Shown here: one piece after another, positions 19,398-27,005 of the stretch
Layout of the letters: the number at the start of each line of letters is the position of its first letter
Position numbering within the stretch: the stretch's first letter is position 1
NCBI GenBank assembly: GCA_026003755.1
Contig: BPHV01000001.1
Span: 558,001 to 622,000, forward strand
Source of the DNA: Candidatus Roseilinea sp.
GTDB lineage: Bacteria > Chloroflexota > Anaerolineae > J036 > Brachytrichaceae
Direction: 5' to 3'
Length of the DNA: 64,000 bases
Made by a program: the position numbers and the translations under genes
Notes under the pieces: model-generated
Seen by the model: the letters and a program-made list of their open reading frames with translations, nothing else
Told to the model about the DNA's origin: nothing
Databases searched by the model: none

Positions 19398-20291
19398 TCA
19401 CACTCTTTGCCACCATCCCTCTTTCTGGATGGCAAAGCCGTGCATAGTCTCGGTGGACGATCCCGGTTCCCAAGCACTGTGCGCCGACATCATACTTCCC
19501 TTCACCATATCCCATCCGCCGATGCAGGTCCAACGTCCGATGAACGACACGTTCCCCTTGGGAAGGGTGTGCGCCAAGACCCGTTGAGTCTGCACGATGG
19601 GGTCGGGGGGCTGCAAATTGACCTGGTTACCAAAGAGGTGCTGCTCCTCATTATTAGGTTGGTCGTATCTTCGCAAATGGCCCAACCCGTAACGCACATC
19701 TCCGCCGACGAAGATTTCGTCAATCGCCATGACATTTTGGCACAATTGTTGGTATGATTGATCGTCTTTGCATAATACATACCCAACCATTGCCACGGAA
19801 TGGGCAGAGTCCTGTCCGTTCACCTGACGCCACCATGGGCTGATGCATTCCAGTTCGCGGAGGGTGGCCTCGGCGGCGCTATCGGCAGAGGGATCAATTG
19901 CGGTGCTTGGGCAAGTAATAAGGATACGCCGGCGGAACTGACGGTCGGGGAGAGATTTGCCGCCATCTTCGCGACACCAGCTTAACCCTGATTCGTCCCC
20001 GTTTTGTTCGTACTGGGGCAGCCAAGCCTGCCACTTTCCGTTGACTTGCTCTGCCGGATAGAGGTAGGAAAAACGCATTGCCTCCTGTACTTGCTGACCG
20101 GTGCCTGCGTAGTCGGGGAAAGATGCAGAAGATGCAGAAAAAGAACGGCGGGCAAGTTCTTCGGTCAACGCCGCCCAGATGTTGCGCGCCGGGATGTAAA
20201 GGCGCGTGCGGTTCAAGAGACCGGCAGGGGTGATGCCGATATGGAGCGGTGCTTCCAAGCGCCAGACCCACCGATACAGCTTCCAGCTCAT
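19398..20291 (-). CDS. RAMP-superfamily CRISPR protein (Cas5/Cmr3- or Csx10-like)
   Basis: 297 residues, last gene of the type III operon, with its ATG overlapping the cas11 stop (ATGA). The start WKLYRWVWRLEAPLHIG fits a RAMP beta-strand 1 with the T/H-I-G turn. RLYIPARNIWAALTEELARR is the usual IPGSSLRGAL-type helix region. The glycine-rich loop GGDVRYGLGHLRRY near residue 205 is the RAMP signature. The long second half suggests a Cas5/Cmr3 role at the crRNA 5' handle, but assignment to Cmr3, Cmr6 or Csx10 is uncertain. Confidence 0.7.
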   Translation of the reverse strand: MSWKLYRWVWRLEAPLHIGITPAGLLNRTRLYIPARNIWAALTEELARRSFSASSASFPDYAGTGQQVQEAMRFSYLYPAEQVNGKWQAWLPQYEQNGDESGLSWCREDGGKSLPDRQFRRRILITCPSTAIDPSADSAAEATLRELECISPWWRQVNGQDSAHSVAMVGYVLCKDDQSYQQLCQNVMAIDEIFVGGDVRYGLGHLRRYDQPNNEEQHLFGNQVNLQPPDPIVQTQRVLAHTLPKGNVSFIGRWTCIGGWDMVKGSMMSAHSAWEPGSSTETMHGFAIQKEGWWQRV

Positions 20292-20677
20292 GGTGTTTTA
20301 TCTCCCTTGGCTTTGAGATGGTAACGGGCGTAGGAGAGTGCTGTGCGCAGCAGATCACGGGCAAAGAGAAGATCGTCCAGGTTACGCGCCAGGTGCGTGG
20401 TAGCCTCCAGGACATCCTTAGCATTATTGAGCTGGGTCACATTATTGGGCTGGGCGTTAAAGATGTCTTGCAAAAATTTGAGGGATTTGTCGCTGCTCTC
20501 ACCGGCTACGTTGCTGTGCCGGGCTTTCAAATAGAGAAACATGGCATACGGACCTTGTTCTTCAAGAACTGCAAGGGCAGCGTTGATAACCTTCTCGTCC
20601 ATGTCTTTGATCCTTGCCAGATCGCGTCCCAACTCGGCGCATTGGATGTCCAGGTTTTTCTTCTGAGCGTCACTCAT
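20288..20677 (-). CDS. cas11: Type III small subunit, Cmr5/Cas11-like
   Basis: 129 residues from ATG 20677, which has a strong GGAGGAGGT site and overlaps the cmr4-like stop. All-alpha: NLDIQCAELGRDLARIKD, AALAVLEEQGPYAMFLYL and the C-terminal DDLLFARDLLRTALSYARYH resemble Cmr5-type small subunits. The EQGPYAMFLYLKAR helix is typical of Cmr5. In type III complexes this subunit forms the inner filament along the target RNA. Position directly after the Cas7-like gene supports this. Confidence 0.72.
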   Translation of the reverse strand: MSDAQKKNLDIQCAELGRDLARIKDMDEKVINAALAVLEEQGPYAMFLYLKARHSNVAGESSDKSLKFLQDIFNAQPNNVTQLNNAKDVLEATTHLARNLDDLLFARDLLRTALSYARYHLKAKGDKTP

Positions 20678-21824
20678 GGTTGACCTCCTCCCTGGCTGGT
20701 AGACGAGATTGTCTGTCCTGAAGCGGCCGAACCGCATTGAACGATTTGATTGGAAGGCGATTGATTCGCGTGAATCACCTTCACCCGCCCCATGCCCCGG
20801 GTGCCCATGCCGCCGATGCCCAGGTGTTCCAGGTAGGGGTGGGCTTGCTTGGTTACATCGTGAACGGCAGCCGGTTTAGAGACCGCCGGAGCTGTCGGAG
20901 CCTGAGCCGCGCCTGCCGGAGCCGTCGGAGCCTGAGCCGCGCCTAACGTAATAGGTTTTTTGTCGATGTTGAAATGCGCCGGGTTCTTGGCGATGATCTC
21001 CCACACCAGCACGGTGCCCCGCGGCAGGGCTTCGTAAGAGAACAACGCTCCTTCCTCGGCTGCGCCGGTGGCCGGGTCGATAGAAACGGAGGTGCGCACC
21101 TCCAGGTTGCTGTTGACGATGTGGGCAAAGAGGCGGTCGGGCACCAGGGCCAGGCTGTCGCGGATGTAATCAGGAGATGTACAAACTTTGAAGTTGACTC
21201 AGTTATTGTGTTCATTTGAGCACATGTTTTTACCGGCAGAAGAAGCCATCCCAGGTTGATCTGATTGTTGGTCTGGTTGTTGGTCTGATTATTGGAACCA
21301 CTTTGCAGGTAAACTGCATCATCTTCCACTCCGTTGACCTCCAACCCAACCAAGTGCAGGACCATCGGGCAGGTCACCCACATCGGTCCCTCGGCGGGTG
21401 GGCACGGGGAAGAGCAGCACGTGAGCGTCGGTGAAGGCGGCCAGGCCGGCAAAACCGCCCTCTTGGCCCGCGCCGCGGGCGAAGCCGAAGACGGTGCAGA
21501 CGGGGCAATCGGGCTGGCGGCAGTGGCCGCGGTTCGTATCCAGACCCAACCCGGCGCAGTCGGGGTAATAGGGTTTCTGTCGCCCCTGAAACTGTTGTCC
21601 GGACTGGCTTGCCTGTTGAATTTGCTGCTGGCGTTGTCCTCATAGTGCATCGCCACATAGGTCCGGTACACGCCCGCCAGGCTGGAGCCGGGAATTTTGG
21701 GCACCTGGGTGACCGGGTCGCGGACGATGGTCAGGTCCACCCGGCCGATGCGGGCGCCGCCGGTCCCTACGTGGATAGGATCCAGCGCCATGCCGATCTG
21801 GATAAATTTCTCGTAACTTGCCAT
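20674..21824 (-). pseudogene. cmr4: Cmr4/Cas7-like RAMP protein, three frameshifts
   Basis: ATG 21824 with AAGGAG upstream. The start is FIQIGMALDPIHVGTGGARI with IPGSSLAGVYRTYVAMHYE, the typical Cas7/Cmr4 opening. The frame must then change near 21570 to reach DCPVCTVFGFARGAG, near 21390 to reach VTCPMVLHLVGLEVNG, and near 21180 to reach DSLALVPDRLFAHIVNS. The final frame runs through ALPRGTVLVWEI and the glycine loop GGMGTRGMGRVKVI to the stop at 20674. Repaired length is ~383 residues. Cmr4 is the backbone subunit that cuts target RNA. A repeat-rich Ala/Pro linker precedes the glycine loop. Confidence 0.7.
20885..20944 (-). repeat. Two 30-bp repeats encoding an Ala/Pro linker in the Cmr4-like gene
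   Basis: Units at 20885-20914 and 20915-20944 differ at one base. They encode a doubled GAAQAPTAPA linker placed just before the RAMP glycine loop. Confidence 0.9.
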
Positions 21825-21837
21825 AGCGATAGCTCCT

Positions 21838-24800
21838 TTACACGCTTTCTTTCAGTACGGTTATGTGCCAGTCAAGCGCCCATTGGAGGATGCCCTGTGT
21901 AGCGGCTCCGGTCAGCGTCTCTAAGGCCGCACCTTGGACTTCCAGATGATGCACCAGTAGAGCTGCGCAGGGTGTCCTGCCAAAGGTCCGGGGCAGCTCC
22001 AGGCCACCTGCCGGCGATTGCCAGTCTTTCTCCAGGCGCGCCAGTTCGCTGCGCAAGCGTTGCAGGGCGGTCTGGCTGGGCGCCACCCGTTGCAGAAGTG
22101 CCCACACGTCCCGCATCTGTGTCCAGTCGTCGAGGGATGCGTGAAGGCGTTGGTATCAAAGCGGGCAGCAGTGCTGTCCATGAAGAGCGTCTTCACCTCG
22201 CGCAGGGAACACCTTGATGCCATCGCCCGGACCGCAGGTCGGCCACATGACGGTAGACCTGGCCGTTGGGATGTTGAAAGTCTCGGGGGAAGCGCACCTG
22301 CTGATCTTCCACCGCCACGTAGGGGTAGAACACATCCTCCCGGCCGTCGGGCAGGGTTACCGGCACGACCCGGAGGGTTTCCCGGCCATCACGCCGGCGC
22401 AGGCGCAGGGCCACCACACCGGACTTGCCTATACTTCCTGGACCTGCCAGGTTTCTTCCTTGCCTGCAAGGCATCTTCCACATTGCGGGTCGCTTCCACC
22501 ACCGCCTGGTAAGGTGCTCATACGGGGGAAGGCGATCACGCCCACCCGCAGCGGCAGGCGATCCCACACCCGGCGAAACGCTCCTGCCACCAGGCCACGG
22601 CCAGGTCCACGCACTCCGATGCCGCCTCCAGCGGCACGATGACCCGGAAGCGCAGGGGTGAGATTTCCACGGGGATCACCGGGTGGTAAACGCTCAGGTG
22701 GCGTGGGGCTGCTGCAATTCCCGAACCTGGGTCACCGTAATGTTGCGGCTCTGGCCGGGCGCATCTTCGTCTTCCAAAGTGATCTGCGCCCCTTGAAGGG
22801 CTGTGTGATGCTCTTCTGGTCGCAGCAGGCGCGCCAGGTTCGTGGCTGTCACGAAAGCCGCTCAGGCTCTGCACATAAACCAGGCTGATCTGCCGCCCCT
22901 GCCAGTGACCATCGTAGAGGGTCAGATCACGCCAGCCGCTGTTGTTATCTGGGCACCAGCACCAGTCGCCGCACCCGCCAGGGGTTGTCGCTGCGGGCCG
23001 CTAACTGCCGAAACTCCCGCAGAAGGTCGCGGAAGAACTCCTCCGCCTCGCGCCAGAAGCGGTAGACCCGGCCCGGGGAAGGGAGTTTGCGGAAGAGCTG
23101 ATGCGCCAGCCATGCGGCGCGCTGGTCGTCGTTCAGACTGCTCCACGAAGGCGCGTCCGCGCGGTCTTCGACGATCTTGCTCATAGAAGGTGCGCCACAA
23201 TCGTTCCTCGTAGACATTCTGCTGTTCTCCTTGCCTCTGGGGATTTAATTTCCGGAGGTGCCGAAATCCCTCTTGCAGGTTCGCTAACAGAAGGTCAGTG
23301 TCCGGAAATTTCCAGTTGCCCGATTGGTCGCGAATCTCTGACGGATTTCGGTTGCAAGGTGAGTTACCAAATGGTAACGGAGTGATAGGGTTGCCTTCAG
23401 CACAGGATTGAACCGTGCCCACTCCGGAATCGCCTGCGCCCGCAGGCTGTCCACCCGCTCGCCGCTGAGCCAGTCTTCCACGTCCAGGGAAAACGTCAGC
23501 AGGCCAGGCGGCCGTTGCGGTCGGCCACCTCTTCAAACCAGATGGTGTCGTTGCCCAGTTGGCCCTGAAGCCAGGCGTCGCGGCGGTGGTGGCGCCGTTC
23601 CCGGCAGACAGCACAGGGCTTGCCCTTGTTGGTGGGATCGCCGTTCAAGCCGCACCCCGCAGACGGGACAGACGTGGCCCGCTTTTGGCATTGTGACCAG
23701 TAATACTCCACCTGCGATGGACCGGGACGCCAACTGTCCTCTTCGCCTCCCGCCATTCGCGCACCATGGGCACCAGAGAGCGGGTGGGGCCGCTCAGACG
23801 CACATGGGGCGGGGTTTCCAGGTCAAGATCGTGGGCGATGGACTCCACCTGCTCTTGCAGCCAGGCACTCCAATCTTGAAGCCAGGGCGCGAATTCGCGT
23901 TCGTTGTATTTGAAATTGGGGTCGTTTCGGTTTTGCCGTTCTTGTTCTTCTTCATCAAACCGCTCTCCCGGGAAGGAGAAAACAGCCACGCTGCCGTCGC
24001 GATACAGCAAAGAACCCACTGCCAGGTCCACCTCCACCAGTGTAGCCACGCGGTGGAAGAACTCCTCTATCGCGCCCTTAGCCCCCGTCCAGTCGCCGAT
24101 CTTCACCGCCCGGGCTTCATAGTGCTCCGTGCCGAGGGCTACGGTCAGCAGGCGCCAGCGAGTATTGTTTTTCACGTAGGACTCCACCATCTGCTGGCGC
24201 TGATTCTTTGTTAGATTGTTCCAGTTTGCTACCTGGGTTGTAAGGTGGTTTTCGATGTCTCGCGCCATGAGCATGGGCGAACGATTGAGTAACACCCCCG
24301 CCACCGCGCTCTTGAACAGCGCCGCGGCCACATAGGACTGGTCCCACAGGGTCACATCGTTGTTGGGCAGCCGCGTCTCGGCCAGGGTAGAGAGAAAGGC
24401 CCGGCGGATGAAAGAACCTTCGCCGATGGCATCTTCCCGCCAGCGTTGCCAGAAGGCCACGTCCTGGGCGTTCTGCCTGCCCAGTTTCTGCAATTCCTCC
24501 AACACGCGGTGGATCTCGGATACTAATTGTTTCCATCCTTGGGGCGAGAGGATCTCCGGCGGGTCGGCCAGCAGGTTACGCTTGAAATGACCCCAGGGGG
24601 AGGAAAGCCACATGTGGGGAATGGTCTGACGAAGGTAACCAGATGTGGAACCCGGCAGGTTTTTCTCGACGCCGGAGACAATCCCGTGCCCGGCTTGAAG
24701 CAGGCCCAGCAGGCCGGGGTCTCTATCGGCGTGCTTTTCGGTAAAGGCGGCAAATGTGCTCGGCCAGGCGTTGGCCAGGTTCCCCACGCTGTAGCTTTGC

Positions 24801-25012
24801 TTAACCCAGTCTAGCAGTTGATCCCAGGGGAAGGGTGGTATTTCTTGCTGGTGCCATTGGCGCTCGTTGTATCCGTTGTTATCACCACCATGGCTTCGCA
24901 GGAACTCTACCCGTGCCTTACCCGCCATGTGGAACCAGCCGATGGCCTCCATAGCCAGGAGTAGAGGGCGATGCTGGCGCAAGGTCCCGGCGGGGGAGAA
25001 GGTGCTGGTCAT
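21838..25012 (-). pseudogene. csx11: Csx11-type Cas10-like large subunit, intact N-terminal half and multiply frameshifted C-terminal half
   Basis: ATG 25012 with GAGGAGG upstream. The intact part (25012-~23750) reads MEAIGWFHMAGKARVEFL, WLSSPWGHFKRNLLADPPEI, ETRLPNNDVTLWDQSYVAAA and TRWRLLTVALGTEHYEAR with VKIGDWTGAKGAIEEFF, blocks I recognise from Csx11. Later pieces in changing frames continue it: CPVCGV...CAVCRERR (zinc ribbon), RLALLTFSLDVEDWLSGERV, FRVIVPLEAASECVDLA, WDRLPLRVGVIAFPRM, VTLPDGREDVFYPYVAVEDQ, HPNGQVYRHVADL and a helical end. Repaired length ~1060 residues. I see no GG-D-D cyclase motif in the pieces. It anchors the type III complex at the 5' end of crRNA. Confidence 0.7.
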
Positions 25013-25023
25013 GGTGTGCCTCC

Positions 25024-25920
25024 TCAAGATAACCAGCTCTGTATGCCTTGGTAGAGATCATTGCGACTCTGCTTCTGTGTGCTTCCGTGCGTTTTGTGGA
25101 AAGCACGCCACTCCGTGATCTTCGCCGTGCCCCAGCCCACGGTGCGCTTGGCGGAGATGCCGTAGGTGGTGAGTAGATCTTCAACGGCTTCCAGCAGTTT
25201 AGGAATCACATCCCGGGGCTTCGCTGCGGGCTTCATACCCGGCCAGGGGGCGTAGAGGAGGGAAAGCGTTCCTTTTGCTCCGGGCGGCACCACCTCATAG
25301 TAGATGGGCTGGGTACCGGCGCGGCGCTCCCGACTGTGGGGGTTGATCACCTCAAAGCCGATCTTGTCGAACCAGGTGGGGTAAAGAACCAATGCGCCCC
25401 GGCTGAACTCCTCGCCCTCTCCTTTTTCGTTGCCGAAGAGGTGCAGAATCCAGTCCGGGTCGCGCCAGTCGTCCATTTTTCCACCTTGCTTTTCCAGGTG
25501 CTCGCGCAGTCCGGCCTGCATCCGGCAGACCCAGCGCAGCATCCCCTTCCAGGACGAAGCTGCCATGAAGGGCACGCCAAACACCCGGTCCTTGCGCACC
25601 GGGTTGTCCAGTAGGTGAAAGACCCGGTCGTCTTTGGAGTACCAGGGGGTGAGGAGTTCAAAATCGACCTGGAAGGCGAGCCAGGTGGAGGAGGGGAGGG
25701 ATGAGAAATTGGGTTTAGTCTGCGAAATCAGGTCTGGGAGCGTGAAAGTCTTACCTGCGCTTTGCACATAGCGTTTGCGATCTTCTTCCTTAACGCCTTC
25801 AAACAAACGCACTGAGACTTCATCCACAAAACCGCCAGCAAGGTCTTCAGGTAGGGTCAGCGTTTCTTGCAGTCTGGGGTTGTTGCCCAGAAAAACAAAA
25901 TAATCCCAGGTCATGAGCAT
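25024..25920 (-). CDS. RAMP-superfamily CRISPR protein (Cas7-like, Cmr6-type position)
   Basis: 298 residues. After a ~80-residue lead-in, WLAFQVDFELLTPWYSKDD and FGVPFMAASSWKGMLRWVCR match the RAMP strand and the S-x-x-K-G-x-L-R helix. DWILHLFGNEKGEGEEFSRG is the L-F-G block shared by Cas7-like RAMPs. GISAKRTVGWGTAKI near the end is the glycine-rich loop. It overlaps cmr1 by about ten bases upstream and csx11 downstream. Likely a Cas7-type filament or capping subunit; Cmr6-like is a guess from gene set. Confidence 0.72.
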   Translation of the reverse strand: MLMTWDYFVFLGNNPRLQETLTLPEDLAGGFVDEVSVRLFEGVKEEDRKRYVQSAGKTFTLPDLISQTKPNFSSLPSSTWLAFQVDFELLTPWYSKDDRVFHLLDNPVRKDRVFGVPFMAASSWKGMLRWVCRMQAGLREHLEKQGGKMDDWRDPDWILHLFGNEKGEGEEFSRGALVLYPTWFDKIGFEVINPHSRERRAGTQPIYYEVVPPGAKGTLSLLYAPWPGMKPAAKPRDVIPKLLEAVEDLLTTYGISAKRTVGWGTAKITEWRAFHKTHGSTQKQSRNDLYQGIQSWLS

Positions 25921-27005
25921 CCCTCCTGCTGAAACAGTGCTTTCAAGATTTGTTCACCTGTTAGGAATTCATTGTCTTGAAAGTTATTCCAGACTTGCTC
26001 AAGGCGTTTTTTCATATCGTCAAAACTCACCGAGTTCGATTGCCCCGGTTGCCCCGGTTGCCCCGGTTGCCCCGGTTGCCCCGGCTGCCCCGGCTGCCCC
26101 GATTGCCCCGGCTGCCCCGATTGCCCCGGCTGTCCCGACTGTCCTGGCTGTCCTGGCTGCCCCGGTTGACCCGGCTTTACAAAGCCGAAGGTGCGCCGTC
26201 CTTCGGTCGGATGCTTGAAACTGAACACCTTCTTGCTCTCCTGCTGGCTGCCAGCGAGCCAAGAATCACCTTGCGCGGATCGTTGCTTTGGCTCTGGGCG
26301 GCCGATAACGACATTAAAAGAACTTGTGTTGGCGTTCTGCCTTGCCAGATACCGCCCCTTCACACACCAGAAGTTTTGCAGCGAAGCCCAGGAGAAGTCG
26401 TGCGCTACTCCCTGTTTGTCTTGGTATGAATGTGGCGCTTGACGCCAGCCGTTTTGCGTCACATAGTCTCGGATGTCTTTAAGCGTTTTGTTACACTGCC
26501 AGCCTTGAGGGCTTTCTATGTACTCCACAAGCCCAAAGTCTTTGTGATGAAGTGCATTCTGCCTATTCTGCTGATCCGACGGCTTGAACACTGTCTTCCC
26601 GCCTATCGCGCCGTAGTTGGCGATGAGGCGCAGGGTGGCATCCAGCAGGCACCACTCCTCGTCCCGAATCGGTCGCAGGGGGATGAAGCGCAGGATGAAG
26701 GTTTGACCGGCTTGAATCCGGTCTTGAGTAACCTGCCCGTTCTCATCCAGAATCATCAACCGGAACTTGCGCGCCCAGCCGGTGCAGCCGAAGAGTTCGC
26801 AGACCACGCAGTGCCGACCGTCCTTGTCCGGGCAGCGCACATCCGACGTGGGGTCGCACGCCTTCCCGCCGAGGCCGCGCACCAGCACCTCAAACCACCA
26901 GCGCAGTGATCCCATGATGCCGGTTGGAATGAGGCGGTCGGGTTTCCCTGCTGCGTCTCCGGTCCAGATGTCGGTATGGGCTGTGAGCTTCCATTCTTTC
27001 ACCAT
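25911..27005 (-). CDS. cmr1: Cmr1-like RAMP protein with collagen-like insert
   Basis: 364 residues, first gene of the operon, ATG 27005. WKLTAHTDIWTGDAAGKPDR followed by IPTGIMGSLRWWFEVLVRGL is the Cmr1 opening with its G-x-L-R-W-W motif. A cysteine cluster (CDPTS...CPDK...CVVCELFGCTGWARKF) follows, then IANYGAIGGKTVFKPS. Residues ~277-322 are fifteen PGQ/SGQ triplets, a collagen-like run absent from Cmr1 proteins I know. The C-terminus resumes as a helical segment (FDDMKKRLEQVWNNF). Cmr1 caps the 3' end of the Cmr complex. Confidence 0.8.
   Translation of the reverse strand: MVKEWKLTAHTDIWTGDAAGKPDRLIPTGIMGSLRWWFEVLVRGLGGKACDPTSDVRCPDKDGRHCVVCELFGCTGWARKFRLMILDENGQVTQDRIQAGQTFILRFIPLRPIRDEEWCLLDATLRLIANYGAIGGKTVFKPSDQQNRQNALHHKDFGLVEYIESPQGWQCNKTLKDIRDYVTQNGWRQAPHSYQDKQGVAHDFSWASLQNFWCVKGRYLARQNANTSSFNVVIGRPEPKQRSAQGDSWLAGSQQESKKVFSFKHPTEGRRTFGFVKPGQPGQPGQPGQSGQPGQSGQPGQSGQPGQPGQPGQPGQPGQPGQSNSVSFDDMKKRLEQVWNNFQDNEFLTGEQILKALFQQEGCS
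26041..26175 (-). repeat. Fifteen 9-bp repeats encoding (PGQ/SGQ)n in cmr1
   Basis: Fifteen consecutive 9-base units of the type tgccccggt (plus strand), with point changes at a few positions. Each encodes Pro/Ser-Gly-Gln. The count is a multiple of three bases throughout, so expansion or contraction leaves the frame intact. Confidence 0.95.

Follow-up and report, generated by a model that had tools for sequence, protein, structure and literature searches.

The window (the whole 64,000-nucleotide stretch that was analysed) contains, on its minus strand, an operon of six genes in which cmr1 comes first and is followed by the genes for Cmr6, Csx11/Cas10c, Cmr4, Cmr5 and Cmr3. Its features are given below with the evidence for each, which includes comparison with the near relatives L008, L009 and L010 and with G263, a second genome that carries the orthologous operon.

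25911..27005, minus strand: cmr1, type III-C effector subunit with a collagen-like insert (364 aa; open reading frame, RAMPs and TIGR01894 profiles, predicted fold)
26040..26174, minus strand: in-frame 9-bp array encoding (P/S-G-Q)15, the collagen-like insert (TRF, Pfam Collagen, unit table)
25024..25920, minus strand: cmr6, intact (298 aa; RAMPs and weak TIGR01898 match; 70% identical to the L008 reading frame; orthologue called Cmr6 by PADLOC)
21841..25012, minus strand: csx11 (cas10c), with 17 apparent frameshifts at 23692-21964 and no stop codon (TIGR02682, frame-aware alignment, G263 comparison, Cas10c model)
20689..21824, minus strand: cmr4, with 3 apparent frameshifts (profile, frame-aware alignment, G263 orthologue)
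21255..21295, minus strand: 12-bp repeat in cmr4, 3.4 copies (NNQT), absent in G263
20885..20944, minus strand: two 30-bp copies in cmr4 (GAAQAPTAPA), 11 copies in G263
20288..20677, minus strand: cmr5, small subunit, homologous to the equally placed reading frame in L008-L010, its role taken from operon position, with no profile match
19398..20291, minus strand: cmr3 (homology to the relatives' reading frames; G263 orthologue called Cmr3 at 1.7e-98)

The PADLOC models, applied to the orthologous operon of G263, recognise Cas10c of type III-C (1.5e-114) together with Cmr1, Cmr6, Cmr4 and Cmr3, and the frame-corrected window Csx11 and Cmr4 are 75% and 72% identical to their L008 counterparts. 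The operon has the content of a type III-C effector module, namely a Cas10c/Csx11 large subunit with Cmr1, Cmr3, Cmr4 and Cmr6. The Csx11 subfamily has been described as an inactivated Cas10 (PMC3150331), and no GGDD motif was seen in the 1073-aa G263 orthologue when it was read by eye. A crude exact-repeat scan found no CRISPR array in the window or in the G263 stretches, and arrays may lie elsewhere. The same genome harbors a second type III locus (G000:C2:559151-564831; L002, L043, L044) with a Cmr1 paralogue and a Csx11 in an unbroken 867-aa frame.

The cmr1 product matches the RAMPs profile PF03787 (77.8 bits, 2e-21) and TIGR01894, the Cmr1 model (64.5 bits, cut-off 28.65), which, together with a fold that resembles solved Cmr1, bears out the identity given in the original prediction. 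The array within the gene consists of 15.0 copies of 9 bp with 86% matches, no indels and a score of 158 (TRF), the copy number of 15 being that of the assembled sequence. The predicted array is real, and only its range was one base off, at 26041-26175 instead of 26040-26174. It encodes residues 278-322 as 15 consecutive [P/S]-G-Q units, and, as had been noticed, these are collagen-like: the Gly-X-Y register is uninterrupted and the match to Pfam Collagen (PF01391) reaches 37.2 bits, above the cut-off of 27.2. Chance is excluded, since the own genome of 3,337,543 bases shows the GQ[P/S] pattern in this array only and a reversed control gave 0 matches; PF01391 likewise finds the cmr1 array and no second place in these 3.34 Mb.

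A scan of one genome per species over 84,980 species yielded 19 Cmr1 relatives from several phyla, 49-72% identical over the best segment. The insert is absent from all 19, from the own-genome paralogue, and from the later-found L050, L051, L052, L053 and L145; the supposed rarity of the feature is supported. In the 19 relatives a short repeat-free turn, VKPG-LVDFDEMK or a similar sequence, connects the strand RTFGF to the C-terminal helix; the window protein reads VKPG-QPGQPG...-QSNS-VSFDDMK at that turn, and the flanking turn and helix are conserved across the relatives. A broken cmr1 copy on a Thermus thermophilus plasmid, adjoined by IS elements, also does without the insert; it was the only close one of three records in the plasmid search, and no relative was found among viral contigs.

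Other additions to Cmr1 were met among these relatives. A PDZ domain (PF13180, 7e-10 to 3e-8, above cut-off) lies between the two RAMP domains in L052:562-1890, L053:1465-2733 and L024:6787-8061, all in type III-C loci, and its insertion site differs from that of the collagen-like loop. The Cmr1 proteins of L008, L011, L022 and L024 carry a Cys-rich, zinc-ribbon-like insert (e.g. KRCKNCGRVHLPGQRCPKT) in a second loop, and that of a Desulfobulbus MAG (L023:8285-8344) has an independent in-frame 15-bp repeat of 4 copies (EKSRD) in yet another loop.

G263, which is presumably Chloroflexus aggregans DSM 9485, is a single-contig genome of 4,684,931 bases from a class of Chloroflexota other than that of the window. 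Its operon agrees with that of the window at 91% of aligned DNA positions, and blastn similarity does not extend beyond the operon; since the two hosts belong to different classes, the operon has probably moved between lineages. Csx11 (1073 aa, within L077 6950-10171) and Cmr4 are unbroken open reading frames in G263. Its Csx11 contains a tandem duplication of the zinc-knuckle stretch NKGKPCAVCRE, and the window lacks the corresponding 72 bp. The G263 Cmr1 is 495 aa long, and its insert occupies the site of the window insert, shares the 3' junction NSVSFD and comprises 56 units (56.6 copies by TRF); the difference of +369 bp is 41 x 9 and keeps the frame, and the Pfam Collagen score rises to 103.5 bits (cut-off 27.2). 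In-frame length variation, which had been anticipated from the 9-bp period, is therefore seen between orthologues with 15 and 56 units. In the tree the two proteins form a two-member clade with support of 100/99, the bootstrap being not fully settled, and a single gain followed by length change is the simplest reading of both inserts.

AlphaFold modelling of the window Cmr1 (17-sequence alignment, pTM 0.78) gave pLDDT below 50 for residues 282-322 and about 90 for the C-terminal helices 328-338 and 350-359, although such low values are weak evidence of disorder when they fall in a low-complexity repeat. At the insert site, the insert-free Cmr1 of L009 is modelled with confidence as a short turn (residues 287-293). 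The top three structural matches (VIA-align) are solved Cmr1 proteins, PDB 9l7c chain A, 4l6u and 4w8x, which share the fold over model residues 1 to ~350 (Z 10.9-12.4), with alignments ending at residues 349-352 and a sequence identity of just 13-17%. A search of PDB sequences with the Cmr1-alignment profile returned two distant RAMP proteins and nothing else. Cmr1 is known to have a double-domain nature, with two RAMP/RRM-like domains (PMC3150331), and the structural matches assign this two-domain fold to the window protein. The insert is predicted to be a disordered loop that bulges out of the second RAMP domain at a strand-to-helix turn. Its placement between the RAMP core and a helical C-terminus must thus be revised, as in the predicted fold it interrupts a beta-alpha turn within that domain, and an extruded loop is a better description than a tether to the C-terminus, whose helix is modelled with high confidence and can be aligned to solved Cmr1 structures.

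Relative to L008, frame-aware alignment shows 17 frameshifts in the window Csx11 and 3 in Cmr4, with no stop codon; relative to G263, most of the frame-breaking indels are of one base, with both gains and losses among them, and they cluster within 23.7-21.2 kb. These ~20 apparent frameshifts cluster at window 21186-23692, a stretch that looks poorly polished. Once the frame of the broken part of Csx11 is corrected, dN/dS is 0.14 and no nonsense codon appears. Consensus errors seem likelier than decay, because the indels are single-base, of both signs and clustered, nonsense codons are lacking, and dN/dS is 0.14; a pseudogene reading was considered and rejected. That the array itself is an assembly or sequencing artefact is extremely improbable, even though the own genome is a 5-contig assembly and the bad stretch lies ~2.4 kb away. 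In G263, an independent single-contig genome, the insert recurs at the identical position and is built of different units, which argues against an artefact. The array is also free of frameshifts although it contains many C runs, and its unit variants are ordered. The outcome that could have undone the original prediction, a repeat missing from all homologues and created by assembly, does not apply, as the G263 orthologue carries the insert.

Gly and Gln are unchanged in 71 of 71 units (15 + 56), and positions 1-2 of both codons never vary. All variation falls on third codon positions and on base 1 of the Pro codon, where the changes give Ser or Ala. The seven distinct substitution classes all lie within the 9 of 27 that preserve [P/S/A]-G-Q, a pattern whose chance is at most ~4e-5 for the several transition biases tried in a crude model that counts classes, not events, and ignores the shared ancestry of units. 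This suggests protein-level constraint on the repeat units. Gln is as fixed as Gly, and a collagen helix would not demand an invariant Gln. Outside the repeat, dN/dS is 0.14-0.38 in all subunits but Cmr3 (0.77, with dS only 0.04). The synonymous divergence from G263 is itself uneven, dS being 0.04 in Cmr3 and 0.09 in the C-terminal part of Cmr4, against 0.19-0.30 in most of the operon; the low values at window 19398-21180 may be read as patchwork transfer or recombination.

In-frame tandem repeats also occur in other subunits. Besides the two cmr4 repeats of the window, the G263 operon (L077) carries the following:

L077 5786-6116: in-frame 30-bp repeat in Cmr4, 11 copies
L077 10905-10957: in-frame 9/18-bp repeat in Cmr6 (SQTSQA run), in G263 and not in the window
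L077 4494-4561: in-frame 15-bp repeat in Cmr3 (APQS run), in G263 and not in the window

No such arrays are present in these genes of L008-L010, and L023 has its own. The G263 DNA that flanks the operon is also rich in tandem repeats. Elsewhere in the window, three identical 42-bp in-frame repeats occupy 681-804 within the open reading frame 7-879. Of 400 Chloroflexota genomes, 14 contain runs of the (GQx)n type.

We consider it probable that the insert is a tolerated, extruded, disordered loop derived from an in-frame minisatellite, and not assembled collagen. The (PGQ)n run would be a 9-bp in-frame minisatellite within cmr1 of the type III-C effector operon, which probably had a single origin in an operon ancestral to those of the window and G263, as the shared site, the NSVSFD junction and the two-member clade suggest. 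Duplicated native Pro-Gly codons of the conserved KPG turn may have been the seed, and the order of the units points to replication slippage and segmental duplication as the processes that changed the length to 15 and 56 units. Capture of a foreign collagen gene was considered as a repeat source; the native turn can supply the seed, however, and the own genome holds no other collagen run. In the protein, the AlphaFold prediction is consistent with a solvent-exposed, polyproline-II-like disordered loop that leaves the turn of the second RAMP domain while both flanks stay folded. Within the complex, Cmr1 sits at the 3' end of the crRNA and contacts it (PMC7192623), so the loop would protrude there. 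Selection would keep it mainly in frame, uncharged and soluble, and a dedicated function would not be needed. The other in-frame repeats of the same operons appear to fit a general expansion process. The confinement of changes in the 71 units to silent or P/S/A ones and the dN/dS of 0.14-0.38 in most subunits also speak for this reading. Against a tolerated loop it can be argued that the strict retention of Gly and Gln over 71 units hints at more than passive tolerance, that 56 units is long for a neutral insert, and that the insert is present in two genomes and no more.

The same strict retention favors a less probable alternative, in which selection maintains the repeats as tunable spacers and variable loops on Cmr1, Cmr4, Cmr6 and Cmr3 tune the surface of the complex, for example in anti-CRISPR shielding, partner recruitment or condensation. 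Several subunits of both operons have in-frame expansions, some private to one operon, and other Cmr1 proteins of the clade gained PDZ or Cys-rich inserts, which indicates that the subunit accepts add-ons. Such spacers have no known partner or phenotype, the near relatives L008-L010 do without the repeats, and the repeat-rich flanks in G263 mean that the process may be regional. A bolder version, in which the type III-C complexes of thermophilic Chloroflexota carry selected hypervariable loops on several subunits (collagen-like in Cmr1, Ala/Pro-rich in Cmr4) that alter surface or assembly state, up to collagen-type trimerisation, appears rather improbable. Each complex contains one Cmr1, so a collagen helix would need three complexes. 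That the run is in fact a triple helix joining three Cmr1 chains, and so bundling three effector complexes, is very unlikely, despite a Gly-X-Y register that runs unbroken through 15 triplets in the window and 56 in G263, where Y is Pro, Ser or Ala, and despite Pfam Collagen scores above cut-off in both proteins. Gln is as invariant as Gly, which the helix does not require, the run has no Hyp and no charge pairs, and profile searches detected the RAMP domains and the repeat alone in Cmr1, with no trimerisation domain. Recombinant bacterial collagens without hydroxyproline have a Tm that levels off at 36-39 C (PMC7824840), whereas C. aggregans lives in hot-spring mats at ~56 C at one sampling site (PMC5790269), and trimerisation of this type is thermally unlikely. 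A special end domain can raise the stability limit, as in BclA (PMC8968730), and none was seen in Cmr1. The suggested bundling of complexes is thus disfavored by the missing trimerisation domain, the predicted disorder (pLDDT <50) and the Tm of recombinant bacterial collagens, which lies below the temperature of a hot-spring habitat.

In the open-access literature that was searched, neither a collagen-like nor a hypervariable tandem repeat is described within a Cas effector subunit, and the hypervariable collagen-like loop in type III-C Cmr1 is a true and rare variant unreported there. It provides a natural length series (0, 15 and 56 units) at a single site in an RNA-targeting complex that is conserved in other respects, which shows where Cmr1 tolerates large insertions and is useful for tagging or cargo fusion, and it makes testable whether an intracellular Gly-X-Y sequence can trimerise.

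Compared with known type III-C (Csx11/Cas10c) operons, the window has the same six-gene content and differs in the in-frame tandem repeats in Cmr1 and Cmr4; the related Cmr1 sequences examined have no PGQ run at the turn that holds the insert. Among the GQx runs examined, those of the window and G263 alone lie in a Cas subunit, and the others are linker-like stretches in unrelated or unclear frames, one of which resembles a small heat-shock protein. The bacterial collagen-like proteins Scl2 and BclA share the Gly-X-Y register and the Pfam Collagen match with the window Cmr1. However, the reviewed members of that group are mostly surface or spore proteins, several of them with trimerisation domains (PMC8968730), whereas the window insert differs from Scl2 and BclA in lying within an intracellular RNP subunit and in consisting of a single repeated triplet type.
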